The translations under genes and the position numbers were made by a program. Of a stretch of 41,401 nt of DNA, positions 2 through 41,401 are shown piece by piece. The DNA is from Flavobacteriales bacterium. GTDB taxonomy: Bacteria; Bacteroidota; Bacteroidia; NS11-12g; UBA955. How positions within the stretch are numbered: position 1 is the stretch's first letter; each line of letters begins with the position of its first letter. Location: NCBI GenBank assembly GCA_947463435.1, contig CANHTS010000003.1, positions 1 to 41,401 of the forward strand. Direction: 5' to 3'. The notes below the pieces were generated by a model. It was not told the origin of the DNA. It ran no database searches and was given only the letters and a program-made list of their open reading frames with translations.

Positions 2-217
2 AATGCCCGGAGAAACTTCCATGGCATTTATCACAACATTTCCGAAAAGTATGTGCAGAATTACCTGAGTGAATTCTCGTTCCTCACCAACCACCGGCAC
101 CTTGGATCACAAAAATTTGATGCGCTTTTATCGCTAATCCTAAGCCAGACGTGGTTTGCGTCTTTGGTGCAAGCTTCCGTATACTCGGGAAACGCGTCGA
201 CGGAAACGGGACCGTGA
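2..217 (+). mobile_element. 3' end of an IS1595/ISXO2-like transposase gene, 5' part cut off by the window edge
   Basis: Frame starting at nt 2 reads NARRNFHGIYHNISEKYVQNYLSEFSFLTNHRHLGSQKFDALLSLILSQTWFASLVQASVYSGNASTETGP*, resembling the ISXO2-like DDE C-terminal pattern (G-YHxVSxKxLxxYxxEFxFxxNxR...FDALL). Not in the ORF track because it has no start codon in the window. Confidence 0.72.
165..183 (-). repeat. Dispersed copy of the core motif (tatacggaagcttgcacca on the minus strand) of the right-edge 79-bp array
   Basis: The + strand tggtgcaagcttccgtata is the exact 19-nt reverse complement of 41178-41196. Confidence 0.85.
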
Positions 218-29038: not shown

Positions 29039-32000
29039 TTAACGGAACAGATGGAAGGTGTTGTTATACCAATGCCTTACGCCTTTGAAATCGGTAATAT
29101 CCAGCGAAACAACATAAACGCCCGGTGTAACTGGTTGGCCCTTGAATGTGCCATCCCATGGTTCGCTGTTGTTCGTACGGTACATCAGTTCACCCCAGCG
29201 GGAATAAATTTCCATTTTGTATTGCTGTATGCCCATTCCCTGGGGTGCAAAGAGATCGTTTTTTCCGTCGCGCCCTGGGGTGAAGGCATTTGGAACGTGC
29301 AGGGTGAAAATGTAGCGCACCTGCACGCGGTCTTCGCTGGAATCGCGGCAACCGTAATCATTTTGTACCCACTGGCGCAAACGATACCAACCGCTGTCCG
29401 CATAGGTATGGTTCACGTTGGAAGTCTGGTAAAGACTGCTGCCGTCTCCCATATCATACCAATACAAAGTGGCGCCGGCGCTGCGGTCGAGCAGACGAAT
29501 GACAGGATCGAGAATGGTGGTTCCATCGGCTGGCTGGATTTCAAAACCAGCTGAAGGAACCGGATATACCCAAACCGGTCTCACGGTATCGTAACGGCAA
29601 CCATAATTGGTCAAAATGTCTAGCCGCACATTGAAGATTCCATCGCTGCGGTAGGTGTATTGTGGATTGGCGCTTGAAGAAGTTCTGCCGTCGCCGAAGT
29701 TCCAGCTATGGCGAGATACGCTGCCACCGGGAACCACGCTGAGGTCATTGAAGCTGGTGAAATCACCCAGGCATACGGTATCAGCAACAAAAGCCGGAAC
29801 GACTTTATCAAAAGCGGTTACGAACCGGATCAGCGAATCGCGACAACCCTGATTGCTGGAAGCGTGCAACGCAACACGGTAAGTTCCGGCGCCTGGATAA
29901 GCATGGGCGGGAGAACCATTGGTGCTGCCTTTTCCATCACCAAAATCCCAACGCTGGGTTGCGATGCTGCCGCCGGTCACCCGTAATGTGTCTCTGAATT
30001 CAAAGCGGTTGTCGTAGCAGGCATTCACCGCTCCAAAGCCAATTTGTGGCAAGGCGTGAATACGGATATTCCGGTTGGTGTGATAAATACAACCTTCTGC
30101 GTTTTCCAGGCTGAGCTTTACGTTGTAGAGACCGGGGTTTTTATACCGGTAAACCGGATTTTGCAGGGTGGATGAATCGCCGCTGCCAAAGAACCATTTC
30201 CGTCTGGTGGGTGTGCCGTTTCCGGTATGGCTGCCGCTGAAAACTGCATCTTCTCGCAGGCAATGATCGCTGAGGACAATATTCGGCCTTGCAGCATGAT
30301 GCACTATGGCTTCCTTGCTGAGCGAATCGCGGCATCCGTACTGGCTTTCCAGGTAAAGCCTGACAGTATAGCGGCCACCTGCGTTGTATCGATATGTCGG
30401 ATGTGTAAGATTGCTGCTGTTGCCGTCTCCAAATGTCCAGTTTCTGCTGCGGATGGTGCCAAAGTCAATGCGCGAACTGTCGCGGAACCGTGTGGTGCTG
30501 TCTTCACAAACAGCCTGCATGCTGAACGCAGGAACAGGTGATGGATAAACACGGAAACTGTCGGTGCGGCTGTCGGCGCAACGGCGATCGCTTTCCACAA
30601 ATAAGTAGACCGGAATCATGCCGGCATTACGCGTTCTCCATGCCCCGCTGTTGCTGCTAAAGCTGTCGCTGGCTGCAATTTTCCAACCTATGCGTCCTTT
30701 TCCTGCGCCATTCCAATTGGAGTTATCGCTGAACCGGAGGCTGTCGCTGATGCAGACTCCGTTGCTGATCAATGCTGCCACAGGCCGGGGATGAATGGTT
30801 GCCGAACCGCTGAAAGTATCTTTACAACCGTTGATGCTGGCCGCGAAAAGGGTAACTGTGTATGTACCGGCGGCTGGATAAATGTGTTTTACGAGTTTTC
30901 CGCTGTCTGTCTTGCCATCACCAAAATCCCAACGGGGTTTGAGCAGTGTGCCGCTCAACAGTGTTGTGGAATCGGCAAACCGGAGTGTGTCGGCGCCTTT
31001 TCCGTAGCATGCAGCTCGGTTGCCGAAGAAAGCGCGCGGACCAGGGAATACGTTCACTGTGGCGCGGAAGGTATCGGTGCAATTGGCATCGCTGATAGCG
31101 ACAAGGCGCACACTTCGGCTGAGGCCGCCATTCATGCGCAGGGTTTGTTTCAGGCCGTTGAGTGTATCCAGGCTTCCTAATGTCCACTGGCGCTCGCGGA
31201 TGATTCCGGTGCTGAGGGTGCTGGAATCGGTAATCAACGGGTCTTTTCCTTCGCACACACGGCTCCAGCCAAAGGCGGCGCGCGGATAAGGTTTGATTTG
31301 AACCCTGGCGGTATCCCAGGCTTTACAGTTGTTGGAGTCGCGTACTTCGATGCGGTAGGTTATTGTTGCGGCAGGTCTTGCTATGGTATTGGCACGGAGC
31401 GAATCATTCAAACCTGTGCCGGGAGTCCAGCGGAAGCGGTAAAGACCTTTCCCCCCGCTGGCTTTGGCGGAAAGAGCTGTGGGTTTACCTACGCAAAGGA
31501 GTGTATCGGTCGGACCGGCATCCACCACCGGAGGGGCGTGAACGGCCAGGCGCACCGTATCCCGCGTGGTGCAAAGGCCGCGGTTGGTGGCGAGAATCAG
31601 GTCGTATGTTTCCGATTTTCCACTGCCATTTAGCAACAATACGCGCGGCCGGGCAAGGGTGTCGTTGTCGAAGGCTGCTGCAGGTTCCCAGCTGTAGCGG
31701 AAACGGTTGGAATTGAATAAACCGGCCCGGAGGCTGTCGCCCGAACAAACCTGCAAATCCGGTCCGGCATTGGTTAAACCGGGAACCGGGAATCGGGTTT
31801 GACGGAATAGGCAGGCACAGGCAGCAGAATCAACAACAGCAATAACGGCACAGGAATATCCGGCGCGTATGCGCAAGGTTTTCAGGACATTGGCTGTCGC
31901 ATTCGCCGCCAGTCCTGATTTCAGGGTATCAGTACCAAGAATCGGATCTCCGGGGCTCAATCCGGCAGAAGCGTCGGCATCGTAGTGGTAGCGTATGACG

Positions 32001-35000
32001 ATGGGTGCGCCGGCAGCAATCCGTACACCGGTATTCCGAATGCTATAAGAGAGTTTGATTTCTTCGCTGTCGTTGCTGAGTTGCCGCGCCGAAATTCCCA
32101 TGTTCAGGAATTGGGGTTGTGCTTTCAGCAAGGTTGGACGGCTTAGCTCTTTACCGGTGATGACATTGATGGTGCACTTGGAATTGTCTTTCACACAAAC
32201 CACCTCCTGTTTCACGACACTTTGCCCGTACAAATCAGCCTGTCCGCAAGAGAAGAAACGCCCATCGGTTTGAAAGCGGAAACGGAATTCCATGGAATCG
32301 CCGGGTTTTATACCCCCGCGTAAGGACCATTCCACTTCGGTTGCGCCGTTTACATCGCGGCGTCGCACTGCTGTTGGCCCGTTGCGGATTGCAGTAAGCG
32401 AACTGGTATCGTAAACCATTCCTTTGGGAAGGAGGAGCTGGTATTTGTCGTTCCACGAAGTAGTATCAGGACCAAGCACAACAACGCGTACCCGCATGTT
32501 GGAGGGTTTTTCGCAAGGGAAAATGCTGTCTGCCCATTGTTTTACCTGGGTGAAATAGGGTCTGATTACCCCTTTAATATCCAGCGGATAACTGATGGCA
32601 GGGATAGAAGGGACAGGATCTCCGCAGCGGATGATGGCTGCAGCATTCGCCCGTACAAAGCTGCCCGAGGAATAATCGCAATTGGTGCGTGCACGGAAAG
32701 AAATAAACAGCTTGTTTTTTGACGTGTCTGTTGTGCCTCTGAATCCTTTTGCAAGGGTGCTGTTAAGCTTATCGAGGTTCCACTCGTAGGTGGTTCCGCT
32801 AACGAGCGAAGGAGCAGGCAGGGAAACAGGGGCGGCATTGCGCGGGTATTGCAAGCGTACCGTTCCTGAAACTACTTCCATACCAAGCGGTAAGGTCAGT
32901 TGGACGCGCGTATTGTACGTGCTCGTGGCCTGCACATTCTCCAGCAGGATCCGGTAAGGCACTTCAGCGCATAAAGGAGCGATGCTGGCCGAGTCATACA
33001 GCGTAAGCTGGAGTCGCGTGTTCTGGGGCTCAAGGAACAGTTTGGTTTGATTGGGTGTGCACCTGTAAGCAGTGAGGTCTTTGGGGTATTCGAGGCAGTT
33101 CCAGCCACCGAGTAAGGTGAGCGAATCTTTGGTACAGCTGGTGTAAACGGCTCTGACCTTAAAGCGGCGGACGCCATTGGCAGGCAAGTTACCGGCGCGG
33201 TAAACACCATTGACCGGGCGAATGAGGGTATCGCGGACAGCATCGCGGATTTCCACCACGCGGATTCCTCCTGCAGAAACCGGGCTCAGCCAAGCATTGA
33301 AAGCGGCAAAGCCAGTGGATGCATTCGAGTAACGCACCTCCCATTCTGCCGTATCGGTGGAAGCATAAAGCGTTGGCAAAACGGGTTGTAAAGAGAGGTT
33401 TGGGCGGTTAAACACGAGGTAGTCGTCATGTCCGGCTACAGAAGAAGGAACGGTATCAAAACCGCGTCCCAGGCTGTTCCGGCGCTCAAAAATGAAATCG
33501 TATTTGAGGGTAATCGGCGTTCCGGCCGGCAATTCACAACCAGGTTGTATCAGGGCGTTGAAATACCCGTGGAAACCATCGTCGCTGTAAGACAACTTAC
33601 CGCCACGGTCTTTGTAGAGATTGGTGGCATCGATCACCAGCGGACTGATGCTGCCGGCGACGGGTTGCAGGCTGTCGGCGATTTCAGTTACAGTCTGATT
33701 CGAACCAGCAGTGCGGTATTGTACGATTTGCGAGCGGATATACTTCGCTCCTGCTGGCAGATAAAGTCTTACAGCCTTGAGTCTTCCGAAATTACGGTAT
33801 TCGTACTGAAAATAGTTGCCGCCTCCGTAGTTGGAACAGCAGGGCCCGGCGCTGAGATAGAAGTAATTATTCACCCATAAGGGATTGCAGCTGTTGATGT
33901 TATACGTATTTCCCACCCAGTTCAGGAAATACCAGCCGCCGATGAACATCTCTCCTGAAAAAGTATCGCACTGGAAGCGTTGGCTGGCATTCGGAGCCGG
34001 CACGGTACCAAAATAGAAACGGTTGTCCCAGCGTGCGGTGACACCACCGTAACTAGGGACACCCGGATTGCCACTTACCCTGTAACGAACAATCAGTTCA
34101 ATGCTATCGTTTACGGTATAAAGGTAACTGGAAGGCAGGCAGCCACCAGCGGCAATGCTATCGAGTGTGAAATCGAATAAGAAGGTAGCATTCACCCCAC
34201 TGGTCACCTTTCGGTGCCTTACACGGTTGCAGGTACCGGAATACAGCGATCCACGCTTGTAGACGCGGAGGCGGGCATCAACGACAGTAAGGTAACTTCC
34301 GTTGGTGACGATGCTTTCCGCATACGCAAAGCGCCAGAGGGTAATTGAAGATGTGCGGCGTACCTTGCCAAAAAATGTGCTGGTGATGGTGTCGCCGGGC
34401 AGTGCCCTTTCTTTTCTTATTTTACTGTGATCCAGGCTTCCCGTGGCATCCGGCAACCCGTCGTTGTTGTTGTCGGGGGAACCAAAGGTGCTGCGCTCAA
34501 CCTTGAAATTCCGGAATTGCATGCCGCCGTTGCAGACATCATAACAATGTAACCGCAGTGTTACACTGTTGCAGAAAGTGCGAATCCAGACACTTGGATT
34601 GCACAGCGGATCCGGATTGTATCGGAACGTGGCTGCGACGGTGCGGTTGGAATTGCCTGTGGCTCCGACGCAGCTTGCCGTCAGGTAAACCATCATATCA
34701 CCATTGTTCAGGCTGAAGGGAACCGGACCTTTGAAAAATGCGCGAATGGTATCGCCATATTTTCTCACCGAATCCGAATTCCAGGTACCGGTAAGGTTGG
34801 CGTTTTGAAAGAAGAAATCTGACGCATTCAGTGAATGGGTAAGACCCGGAGGAACAATGATTTCTGCCCAATAGCGTGCCCGCGAAGTGCCGGCGAAGAA
34901 ATTTGTACTGCCAATGGTGTAGCGAAACAGCTTCTTTTCTGTATCGACCATATCCGTAGGAGCAAGCGGTGTAACACTCATTCCGGTCCAAACGGGTACC

Positions 35001-36337
35001 TGACCCCACGTCCAGTTTACGGTCTGAGTCAGTTTACATGGATCGGTGAAAGTTGCCATGTACTGCCAGCCGATTCCATAATAGGATATATTACAGATAT
35101 CAGGGGTACAGGTATACATGTTCCAGTCGATATAGATTGTATCGCCTGGTGCCATTGTTCCAATTCGCAGACGGATTAATCCAACAGCCTGAGGCCCGAG
35201 ACAGGTATAAACAGCACTGCTGCTGTTGGTGAAGATGATGGAATCGACCTGTGCTTTGAAACGGGCGCCTTTCCAGCCACGGCGCAACCAGATGCTGGCT
35301 GTATCCAGCCGCGACATCATGTTGTTGCTAAACCCGAAATTGGCGCTCTGAGCAAGTGTAATGCGCACGTTTTCCGCCTTCATTTCTCCGCGGTTGAAGA
35401 AACGTAAACGCTGTGCTGAAGCAGTTGCGGAATTATAACAGGTGCTCACGCTTCCCTGAACGATACCGGTCAAAATCGGTGCGCGGGTATCTTTGATCAC
35501 AGTTGCATTTGAGCGAATCGTTTGGCAGTTTTTTCCATCGCAACCCCAGGTAAGCTCAATACTTGTGGCAAAGGCGTTGCAGCCAATGATTTCAATGCTG
35601 TCCGTTATGGTGACAGATTCGTTTTGATCCAGCACCGAATCGCGGTCGCCGATGGTTTGAAAGAACGATTTTCCAAGTACGTTGATCACGGTGTCGCGAC
35701 CGAAGTAAGTAGCGCTGCGGTTTACACCATACGTCCGTATATCCTTTCCGTTTACACGCCTGAGCGTAATCGATGTCAGCGGACCTTTTCCATAATTGGT
35801 AATGGTAAAAGTGCGCACAAAACGGTCGCCAACGTTACCTGTGAAAGATTGATTGCTGATAGAAGCGAAGCCCGGTGCCGGCACGTTGGCAGGAAACGGA
35901 TTGGAAGTTGCCTGGTCAAAACTTCCCACATAAGCTGCCCTGCATGTGATGCTGGGTGTTCCGCTTGCGTTCAGGAAACCCAGAAAATCGCAATTGGACC
36001 TGATGCCGTACCGGAATGTAAAACGACCGGCCAGACTGAGATTGGGCCCATTGAATACCGGTTTGTTCAGATCGCTGATATTGTTTTCGCTGACGCCGGT
36101 GCCGGCGACAGATCCCGGCACATACATAACGCCGGGTGGCAGGGTAAGTGTAACAGTAATGCTGCTTACCGCGCCGGGGCTGATATTGATGACGGTTGCC
36201 CGGGCGGTATCGCTTCCTGCGCAAATATTCAGGTTGCGAGGTGTACTCAGGGTAAAAGTTAACCTGTTCCCCTGCGCGGATAGGTTCGCTGCAAGAAACG
36301 AAAGGAACAATAACAAAATCCCCCGGAATACTGACAT
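29039..36337 (-). CDS. Giant secreted multidomain PKD/Ig-like protein with gliding-motility-type (T9SS type B) C-terminal domain
   Basis: Signal MSVFRGILLLFLSFLAANLSAQ; multiple WDFGDGK...H/YxYPxAGTYxVxL...GCRD PKD repeats; C-term HVPNAFTPGRDGKNDLFAPQG...YSRWGELMYRTN...WDGTFKGQPVTPGVYVVSL. ATG at 36337 preferred over GTG at 36343. Confidence 0.93.
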   Translation of the reverse strand: MSVFRGILLLFLSFLAANLSAQGNRLTFTLSTPRNLNICAGSDTARATVINISPGAVSSITVTLTLPPGVMYVPGSVAGTGVSENNISDLNKPVFNGPNLSLAGRFTFRYGIRSNCDFLGFLNASGTPSITCRAAYVGSFDQATSNPFPANVPAPGFASISNQSFTGNVGDRFVRTFTITNYGKGPLTSITLRRVNGKDIRTYGVNRSATYFGRDTVINVLGKSFFQTIGDRDSVLDQNESVTITDSIEIIGCNAFATSIELTWGCDGKNCQTIRSNATVIKDTRAPILTGIVQGSVSTCYNSATASAQRLRFFNRGEMKAENVRITLAQSANFGFSNNMMSRLDTASIWLRRGWKGARFKAQVDSIIFTNSSSAVYTCLGPQAVGLIRLRIGTMAPGDTIYIDWNMYTCTPDICNISYYGIGWQYMATFTDPCKLTQTVNWTWGQVPVWTGMSVTPLAPTDMVDTEKKLFRYTIGSTNFFAGTSRARYWAEIIVPPGLTHSLNASDFFFQNANLTGTWNSDSVRKYGDTIRAFFKGPVPFSLNNGDMMVYLTASCVGATGNSNRTVAATFRYNPDPLCNPSVWIRTFCNSVTLRLHCYDVCNGGMQFRNFKVERSTFGSPDNNNDGLPDATGSLDHSKIRKERALPGDTITSTFFGKVRRTSSITLWRFAYAESIVTNGSYLTVVDARLRVYKRGSLYSGTCNRVRHRKVTSGVNATFLFDFTLDSIAAGGCLPSSYLYTVNDSIELIVRYRVSGNPGVPSYGGVTARWDNRFYFGTVPAPNASQRFQCDTFSGEMFIGGWYFLNWVGNTYNINSCNPLWVNNYFYLSAGPCCSNYGGGNYFQYEYRNFGRLKAVRLYLPAGAKYIRSQIVQYRTAGSNQTVTEIADSLQPVAGSISPLVIDATNLYKDRGGKLSYSDDGFHGYFNALIQPGCELPAGTPITLKYDFIFERRNSLGRGFDTVPSSVAGHDDYLVFNRPNLSLQPVLPTLYASTDTAEWEVRYSNASTGFAAFNAWLSPVSAGGIRVVEIRDAVRDTLIRPVNGVYRAGNLPANGVRRFKVRAVYTSCTKDSLTLLGGWNCLEYPKDLTAYRCTPNQTKLFLEPQNTRLQLTLYDSASIAPLCAEVPYRILLENVQATSTYNTRVQLTLPLGMEVVSGTVRLQYPRNAAPVSLPAPSLVSGTTYEWNLDKLNSTLAKGFRGTTDTSKNKLFISFRARTNCDYSSGSFVRANAAAIIRCGDPVPSIPAISYPLDIKGVIRPYFTQVKQWADSIFPCEKPSNMRVRVVVLGPDTTSWNDKYQLLLPKGMVYDTSSLTAIRNGPTAVRRRDVNGATEVEWSLRGGIKPGDSMEFRFRFQTDGRFFSCGQADLYGQSVVKQEVVCVKDNSKCTINVITGKELSRPTLLKAQPQFLNMGISARQLSNDSEEIKLSYSIRNTGVRIAAGAPIVIRYHYDADASAGLSPGDPILGTDTLKSGLAANATANVLKTLRIRAGYSCAVIAVVDSAACACLFRQTRFPVPGLTNAGPDLQVCSGDSLRAGLFNSNRFRYSWEPAAAFDNDTLARPRVLLLNGSGKSETYDLILATNRGLCTTRDTVRLAVHAPPVVDAGPTDTLLCVGKPTALSAKASGGKGLYRFRWTPGTGLNDSLRANTIARPAATITYRIEVRDSNNCKAWDTARVQIKPYPRAAFGWSRVCEGKDPLITDSSTLSTGIIRERQWTLGSLDTLNGLKQTLRMNGGLSRSVRLVAISDANCTDTFRATVNVFPGPRAFFGNRAACYGKGADTLRFADSTTLLSGTLLKPRWDFGDGKTDSGKLVKHIYPAAGTYTVTLFAASINGCKDTFSGSATIHPRPVAALISNGVCISDSLRFSDNSNWNGAGKGRIGWKIAASDSFSSNSGAWRTRNAGMIPVYLFVESDRRCADSRTDSFRVYPSPVPAFSMQAVCEDSTTRFRDSSRIDFGTIRSRNWTFGDGNSSNLTHPTYRYNAGGRYTVRLYLESQYGCRDSLSKEAIVHHAARPNIVLSDHCLREDAVFSGSHTGNGTPTRRKWFFGSGDSSTLQNPVYRYKNPGLYNVKLSLENAEGCIYHTNRNIRIHALPQIGFGAVNACYDNRFEFRDTLRVTGGSIATQRWDFGDGKGSTNGSPAHAYPGAGTYRVALHASSNQGCRDSLIRFVTAFDKVVPAFVADTVCLGDFTSFNDLSVVPGGSVSRHSWNFGDGRTSSSANPQYTYRSDGIFNVRLDILTNYGCRYDTVRPVWVYPVPSAGFEIQPADGTTILDPVIRLLDRSAGATLYWYDMGDGSSLYQTSNVNHTYADSGWYRLRQWVQNDYGCRDSSEDRVQVRYIFTLHVPNAFTPGRDGKNDLFAPQGMGIQQYKMEIYSRWGELMYRTNNSEPWDGTFKGQPVTPGVYVVSLDITDFKGVRHWYNNTFHLFR

Positions 36338-36345
36338 GGTCACGC

Positions 36346-39783: not shown

Positions 39784-40878
39784 TCAGAGTTTTTTGCGGC
39801 GGTTGGTTTCAAAGTCCTCAAAAACCAATTCGCCCAATCCCTGAAGACCGGTGTAGAAAGCTCTGCCGCCGTTCACTTCGGTAAACTCATGGACAAACTG
39901 TTGCAGATATGGGTCGCGCGCAATCATGAAAGTAGTCACCGGAATTTTCAATCTTCGGCACTGTGCCGCCATTTGGAGTGTACGGTTGATGATTTTGCGG
40001 TCGAGCCCGAAACTGTTTTTGTAGTAATTGCCGTTTTCCTTGAGACAGGAAGGTTTCCCGTCGGTAATCATGAATATTTGGCGGTTGGGATTCTTTTTCC
40101 TGCGCAGCAGTTCCATCGCTAATTCGAGGCCTGCGACTGTATTGGTATGGAATGGGCCAACCTGCAGGTAAGGCAGATCTTTTACGCTGATGGGCCATGC
40201 ATCATTGCCGAATGCGATGATATCGAGCGTGTCTTTCGGGTATTTGATGCGGATGAGTTCGGCGAGCGCCATGGCTACCTTTTTAGCCGGTGTAATGCGG
40301 TCTTCGCCATATAGAATCATGCTATGGCTCACATCGATCATCAGCACGGTGCTGGTTTGCGATTTGTGTTCGCGTTCGCGCACCACCAGATCGCGTTCCT
40401 CCAGGCTTTCGAATTCTCTGCCGGCACGGATTTGGGCATTCCGCAGGCTGTCGGTCATGCTGATGTTGTCGAGCCCATCACCAAAACGGTATTCGCGTAA
40501 ATCGGCCGACATTTCGTCGCCCTGACCGGTGAAGGTGGTTTTGTGTTGTCCGGCTTTACCTTTCTTCAGTTTGCCGAAAATTTGTTCCAGCGCGTCGCGG
40601 CGAATTTGTTGTTCTGTTGATGGAGAGATGGCGATGCTCCCATCTTCATTGTCTTTCAGGTAACCTTTTTCGCGCAGCTCTTCGATGAAGTCACCAATAC
40701 CGTAGTTGCCGGGTGTCAGTTCATGGGCTTTGTCGAGTTCCGTGAGCCAGTCGAGCGCTTCTGCGACGTCGCCACTGGTATGGACCAATAGTTCGCGAAA
40801 GATGCGGAAAAGAGAATCGAAATTCGATTCTTCCTTGTTTTCAAAGTATCGACTGAAAATGAAACCGGGTCTGGCCAT
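39784..40878 (-). CDS. VWA domain protein with intact MIDAS
   Basis: STVLMIDVSHSMILYGEDRITPAKKVAMAL (DxSxS); IFMITDGKPS; ATG at 40878 (MARPGFIFSRYF) preferred. Confidence 0.88.
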   Translation of the reverse strand: MARPGFIFSRYFENKEESNFDSLFRIFRELLVHTSGDVAEALDWLTELDKAHELTPGNYGIGDFIEELREKGYLKDNEDGSIAISPSTEQQIRRDALEQIFGKLKKGKAGQHKTTFTGQGDEMSADLREYRFGDGLDNISMTDSLRNAQIRAGREFESLEERDLVVREREHKSQTSTVLMIDVSHSMILYGEDRITPAKKVAMALAELIRIKYPKDTLDIIAFGNDAWPISVKDLPYLQVGPFHTNTVAGLELAMELLRRKKNPNRQIFMITDGKPSCLKENGNYYKNSFGLDRKIINRTLQMAAQCRRLKIPVTTFMIARDPYLQQFVHEFTEVNGGRAFYTGLQGLGELVFEDFETNRRKKL

Positions 40879-41012: not shown

Positions 41013-41023
41013 ACCAGAGCATA
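41013..41023 (+). repeat. Left arm of an 11-bp inverted repeat flanking the array (accagagcata)
   Basis: Reverse complement tatgctctggt found at 41377-41387. Confidence 0.75.
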
Positions 41024-41401
41024 CGGAAGCTTGCACCAGGGATTGTAATGCCGATGGGACCCGTTGAAAATGAAGGCTTTGACGATTTTGAGTCCGATTA
41101 TGCGGAAGCTTGCACCAGGGATTGTGCTGCCGCTGTAACCGGTTGGAAATAAATGCTTTGGGGATCTTGAGTCCGATTATACGGAAGCTTGCACCAGGGA
41201 TTCTGATGTCGCTGTAACCGGTTGGAAAAGAAGACGTTAAGAATCTTGAGTCCGATTATACGGAAGCATGCACCAGGGATTGTAATGCCGATGGAACCCG
41301 TTGAAAAAGAAGGCGTTAAGGTTTTTATGGCCGACTACACGGAAGCTTGCACCAAGAATCCGTAGGATGGCTGTTTTATGCTCTGGTTGCCCGCGCAGGA
41401 G
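41024..41401. repeat. Tandem array of 79-bp units (4 full plus 1 partial/diverging)
   Basis: cggaagc(t/a)tgcacca begins at 41024, 41103, 41182, 41261 and 41340, spaced exactly 79 bp. Confidence 0.97.
41377..41387 (-). repeat. Right arm of the 11-bp inverted repeat flanking the array
   Basis: tatgctctggt, perfect reverse complement of 41013-41023. Confidence 0.75.

Follow-up and report, generated by a model that had tools for sequence, protein, structure and literature searches.

A 79-bp tandem array whose units begin with the end of a resident IS1595-family element: a likely IS-end satellite

Introduction

What is the 79-bp tandem repeat that occupies the right end of contig C3, next to a VWA-domain gene? 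The window that we analysed is the entire contig (41,401 bases), part of a fragmented, metagenome-type assembly of 2.64 Mb in 280 contigs that is 84% complete. The assembly may hold a mixture of strains: C3 and another contig, C132, overlap with small differences. Bacteria are known to carry MITEs derived from insertion sequences (IS), and tandem repeats within MITEs have likewise been described in them. Here we describe the array, the match of its repeated core to the end of a resident IS and the related arrays of the same genome.

The window array and its unit

A single array exceeded the TRF threshold in the window, at 41021-41354 (period 79, 4.2 copies, 83% matches, 0% indels, score 416). 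The whole structure spans 41024-41401, is non-coding and consists of four 79-bp units followed by a fifth core; pairwise identity among the four full units is 74.7-86.1%. We placed the natural start of the unit at 41017 (GAKTATRCGGAAGCTTGCACC) because the tail of each unit and the next head form one conserved block and the TIR described below begins there. In this register the relevant features of the window are the following.

2-214, plus strand: 3' end of an IS1595-family transposase gene (residues 257-327), cut by the contig start; 97% to the C132 transposase
166-186, minus strand: TIR belonging to that IS (GAGTATACGGAAGCTTGCACC), at the edge of the window opposite the array
39784-40878, minus strand: VWA-domain gene, whose start is separated by 138 bp from the array upstream; a neighbour with no shown link
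41017-41095, plus strand: unit 1, TIR-like core 41017-41037 (GAGCATACGGAAGCTTGCACC) and spacer; 20/21 identical to the C132 IS TIR
41096-41174, plus strand: unit 2, core 41096-41116 (GATTATGCGGAAGCTTGCACC) and spacer; 19/21 to the C132 IS TIR
41175-41253, plus strand: unit 3, core 41175-41195 (GATTATACGGAAGCTTGCACC) and spacer; 20/21 to the C132 IS TIR
41254-41332, plus strand: unit 4, core 41254-41274 (GATTATACGGAAGCATGCACC) and spacer; 19/21 to the C132 IS TIR
41333-41359, plus strand: fifth, bare core (GACTACACGGAAGCTTGCACC AAGAAT); 19/21 to the TIR and 87% over 31 bases to the end of the C147 MITE
41360-41401, no strand: unmatched sequence to the contig end, with no copy found elsewhere in the assembly

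The middle of the unit comes in two versions in the order A-B-B-A, units 1 and 4 being alike and units 2 and 3 alike. The AAGAAT that follows the fifth core is closer to IS ends (AAGATT, AAAGAA) than to the AGGGATT of the internal units. Since the array reaches the contig end, it may continue, with further copies possible past 41401. Elsewhere in the window, 29039-36343 (minus strand) encodes a 2434-aa protein whose scanned C-terminal part contains PKD repeats and a CHU_C type IX secretion signal domain.

A first-pass annotation of the window had located five cores at 41024, 41103, 41182, 41261 and 41340, which is exact, and the absence of indels was confirmed by TRF. Its count of five holds for the cores; the fifth copy is a core only, and what lies between it and the contig end is unrelated. 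The conserved tail that it reported, ttgagtccgattat, is kept in units 1-3, whereas unit 4 carries tttatggccgactac, and the tail adjoins the head as one block. We agree with its exclusion of a repeat protein, as no ORF of at least 80 aa runs through the array and the period is not a multiple of 3, and of CRISPR, the spacers being homologous to each other. The structural repeat that it also considered, read as a structured RNA, was not borne out: folding z-scores ranged from -1.6 to +1.1 over both strands, with no Rfam match over threshold.

The unit heads match the end of a resident IS1595-family element

The first-pass annotation had proposed a BLASTn search of one 79-bp unit against the source genome and other Bacteroidota. 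BLAST of the array against its own genome returned short matches to IS or MITE ends at C132:163-186 (plus) and C132:1250-1271 (minus), at C147:4876-4897 (plus) and C147:5121-5142 (minus), and at the left edge of the window (165-188). C132:165-1271 is a 1107-bp insertion sequence in which inverted copies of GAGTATACGGAAGCTTGCACC at both ends flank a transposase gene. The 327-aa transposase has an IS1595 zinc ribbon and a DDE domain (PF12760, 4e-9, and PF12762, 5e-7, both over their cut-offs) and falls just below the cut-off of 75 for NF033547 (72.5 bits, E 4e-20). C147:4878-5142 is a 265-bp element that shares the ends of the C132 IS and has no transposase, a MITE; simple MITEs with similar ends are present on C33, C88, C114 and C147.

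All five window cores agree with the C132 TIR at 19-20 of 21 bases, while other offsets within the unit reach at most 11.8. On this match the heads of the window units are clearly recognizable as the TIR of a resident IS1595-family element. Allowing up to 3 mismatches, the 20-bp core occurs 10 times in the 2.64-Mb assembly and its reversed control not once, which excludes chance. Apart from the TIR, the window array and the C132 IS have little in common. Like a MITE, the window array is short and non-coding and its ends match a resident IS; its cores all point in one direction, any right side lying past the contig end, and inverted cores are found in the array on C73. The idea in the first-pass annotation of a dispersed element that had expanded locally was right in direction. 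It missed that the core is an IS1595-type TIR, that the same IS stands at the other edge of the window and that the genome contains at least seven arrays, because recognizing the TIR required the rest of the genome.

The genome shows a strong expansion of IS1595-type transposases, with 43 matches, many of them truncated by the end of a contig. At E 1e-50 none of the order's other 109 genomes had a relative of the C132 transposase, and among 398 genomes of the phylum a single 29% relative was found, with no recognisable TIR there. The nearest named relative in the IS1595 family is ISBbi1, at 31.5% identity; the resident elements with these TIRs likewise encode IS1595-type transposases. Among the features of the family are target duplications of 7-9 bp (PMC12561309). 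Neither the C132 and C53 elements nor the MITEs showed a target-site duplication (about 8 bp expected); these may be old copies or rearranged sites. Given this lack at complete elements, we make no claim of recent transposition or mobility.

Positions 1-344 of the window overlap the start of C132 across the IS1595-type IS end (98.5% over the 200 bases checked, with few differences). It is therefore probable that C3 and C132 either adjoin each other or represent variant strains.

Related arrays in the same genome

We searched about 1.5 Mb of the assembly with TRF and all of it with TIR patterns. At least seven loci clearly have the form (TIR+spacer)n+TIR, and together their cores resemble the TIRs of several resident IS1595 subgroups. 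Unit lengths are about 55-143 bp, with one of 193. In addition to the window array we found the following.

C42: 91-bp units, six cores; the core is GATTATGCGGAAGCGTGCCAC, a match to the end of another IS1595-type IS located on C212
C73: 143-bp units within about 630 bp; three forward cores, then two inverted
C91/C13: 111-112-bp units, six cores; shared flank
C144/C24: units of about 55 bp
C170: 70-80-bp units, five cores; found with the TIR of the C53 IS
C1: four cores spaced 112, 193 and 111 bp

The C91 array and the one at the C13 end are probably the same locus, and C24 probably continues the C144 array. Within each array the cores point one way; on C73 they then face inverted ones. The C42 array, the second to be found, was reached through a weak hit. 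The C53 IS, which has transposase fragments between its ends, carries a TIR (GATTGTGTCGAAGCCTACACAA) that until then had been seen in no array, and searching with it as a test yielded the new array on C170. There two types of spacer follow each other as B-A-B-B-A, with an incomplete first unit, which echoes the A-B-B-A order of the window array. In the C91 array it is neighbouring units that are most alike (97% and 95%). The C91 and C1 cores are less close to known IS ends (18/21 and 17/21). Some sequence just inside the TIR is common to C73, C91 and C33, so at these loci the spacer is in part IS-derived.

Another repeat of this genome, with the motif CACGCAAAGACCGCAAAG, forms arrays with a period of about 155-184 bp at C48 (6458-7282 and 9127-9636) and C59 (6501-6931); the spacers of the C1 array contain this motif as well.

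Specificity and conservation

TIR-pattern searches in the own genome gave 35 hits against 4 and 48 against 0 for reversed-pattern controls. Two sister species had no real TIR copies, only hits with 2-3 mismatches, and a pattern search over 392 genomes of the class returned, beyond the own genome, 2-mismatch hits only. In GTDB, paired copies of CGGAANNNTGCACC lying 50-80 bases apart were present at 21 loci, with no such array among them; the scan may have left out own or near records. Upstream of VWA orthologues the array was absent at 19/19 loci, and a conserved regulatory element of this gene was rejected on that ground. On these comparisons the sampled relatives clearly lack the arrays. A plasmid or phage repeat was considered as well and discarded, with no match.

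Bacteroidetes bacterium RE-18aug17-270 has intergenic 17-bp tandem repeats at L108:103-200 and L116:2423-2671. One variant of the unit, CGGAAGCTTGCACCAAG, is identical over its 17 bases to part of the IS end described above. No transposase match lies near these repeats, and the likeness may be a relation or a coincidence.

In a ranking designed after the arrays had been seen, and covering six of them (the C73 units are too alike), the conservation of the 21-bp core among windows ranked 4/92 on C42, 6/112 on C91, 4/55 on C144, 7/80 on C170, 7/195 on C1 and 13/79 in the window array. In all six arrays the TIR belongs to the better-conserved stretches of the unit, which suggests, without proving, that it has been retained through recognition by the transposase.

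Discussion

We consider it quite likely that the window array is an IS-end satellite, that is, a tandem series of one IS1595-family end, each copy followed by a like spacer and the whole closed by a bare TIR. For its origin we favour, with moderate confidence, a seed that was later amplified. The seed would have formed when adjacent insertion or an internal deletion left two IS or MITE ends near each other and pointing the same way; the direct TIRs would then have recombined, or slipped during replication, and the TIR+spacer unit would thereby have been multiplied and shuffled. A (TIR+spacer)n+TIR structure in one direction is the expected product of such events from one TIR-spacer-TIR seed, and the likeness of neighbouring units on C91 and the shuffled spacers on C170 fit recombination or slippage. 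Stacked ends of the seed type are present on C73, in a MITE-like structure. More tentatively, the TIRs may have stayed intact because the transposase still recognises them, in which case the array could offer extra putative transposase-binding sites and possibly be part of a non-autonomous mobile element.

The array could instead be one arm of a larger non-autonomous transposon, a foldback-like or stacked-end mobile element with its inverted arm past the contig end and extra TIRs that aid transposition. We regard this as rather unlikely, although the array begins at the outer TIR boundary, C73 has direct and then inverted cores, and Galileo and Tetris are precedents (PMC4079207); at C91/C13 and C42, where both flanks are seen, neither inspection by eye nor pattern searches revealed an inverted partner, and the missing target-site duplication also speaks against it. 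Another reading takes the arrays as banks of the genome's own IS ends, maintained as decoy, immunity or landing sites; by binding transposase they would damp transposition, repel it or attract it. The many IS1595-type copies, the resemblance of the arrays to several IS subgroups and the conservation of the TIR relative to the spacer would suit such a role, which nevertheless seems improbable to us: no array is conserved in relatives, neutral amplification accounts for the form, and a recent re-supply of TIRs could account for the conservation. We know of no IS1595 immunity.

The array lies upstream of the VWA gene, and on the strand of that gene there are two weak sigma-70-like matches, both of which would be compatible with a cis-regulatory repeat made of promoter or regulator sites. 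These matches barely exceed those in shuffled sequences (2 against 0.7, sd 1.0), however, the orthologues in relatives lack the array, and similar arrays adjoin unrelated genes, all of which makes regulation of this gene very improbable. We give hardly any credence to an ordinary VNTR with a chance likeness to the TIR or to an assembly artefact, which might have been suspected because the assembly is fragmented and the array lies where a contig ends. The units differ by 14-25% and so are not one read copied, the C42 and C73 arrays are internal to their contigs, and cores match TIRs at seven loci against 0-4 hits for control patterns.

The IS-end satellite has its closest logic in eukaryotes, in the tandem amplification of transposon-end sequence. 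The TIR-220 repeats of Tetris in Drosophila virilis are a transposon end amplified in tandem and partly free of the transposon, and the TIR repeats of Galileo carry extra transposase-binding sites (PMC4079207). Both are foldback elements with long TIRs and repeats of about 220 bp, whereas here 21-bp bacterial IS ends head units of 55-143 bp and several IS subgroups are resembled. In P. gingivalis, BrickBuilt/MITEPgRS (464) links a minisatellite with repeats of 23 or 41 nt to a MITE whose TIRs match a resident IS (PMC4596501). It shares with our case Bacteroidota, an intergenic location and resident-IS TIRs, but its repeats are internal, with TIRs at the outer ends only, and its parent is an IS5 rather than an IS1595 element; a MITE of this type with a minisatellite is ruled out here, as a TIR heads every window unit. 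In corals, CMITE units derived from a transposon and set apart by similar spacers form tandem arrays, ascribed to replication slippage (PMC2872659). What is repeated there is the full-size MITE, in contrast to the arrays described here, whose units each have one end and share one orientation. The word "tandem" is absent from a 2024 review of prokaryotic MITEs (PMC10969869). We found no bacterial array with an IS end heading every unit in the open-access literature, in which an earlier description may have been missed, and no description of arrays of IS1595 ends in the papers found.

What appears to be new is the IS end at the head of every unit, the presence of several arrays in one genome and their resemblance to several IS subgroups. 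It is conceivable, if doubtful, that bacterial DNA includes such arrays as a class that is actively maintained: IS1595 subgroups would have matching banks of ends that bind transposase and control, attract or repel transposition. If the arrays prove general, they would be a bacterial counterpart of the insect route from transposon to satellite and a simple system in which to test the effect of many transposon-end copies on transposition, and they would give rise to VNTRs and to breaks in the assembly of genomes rich in IS.
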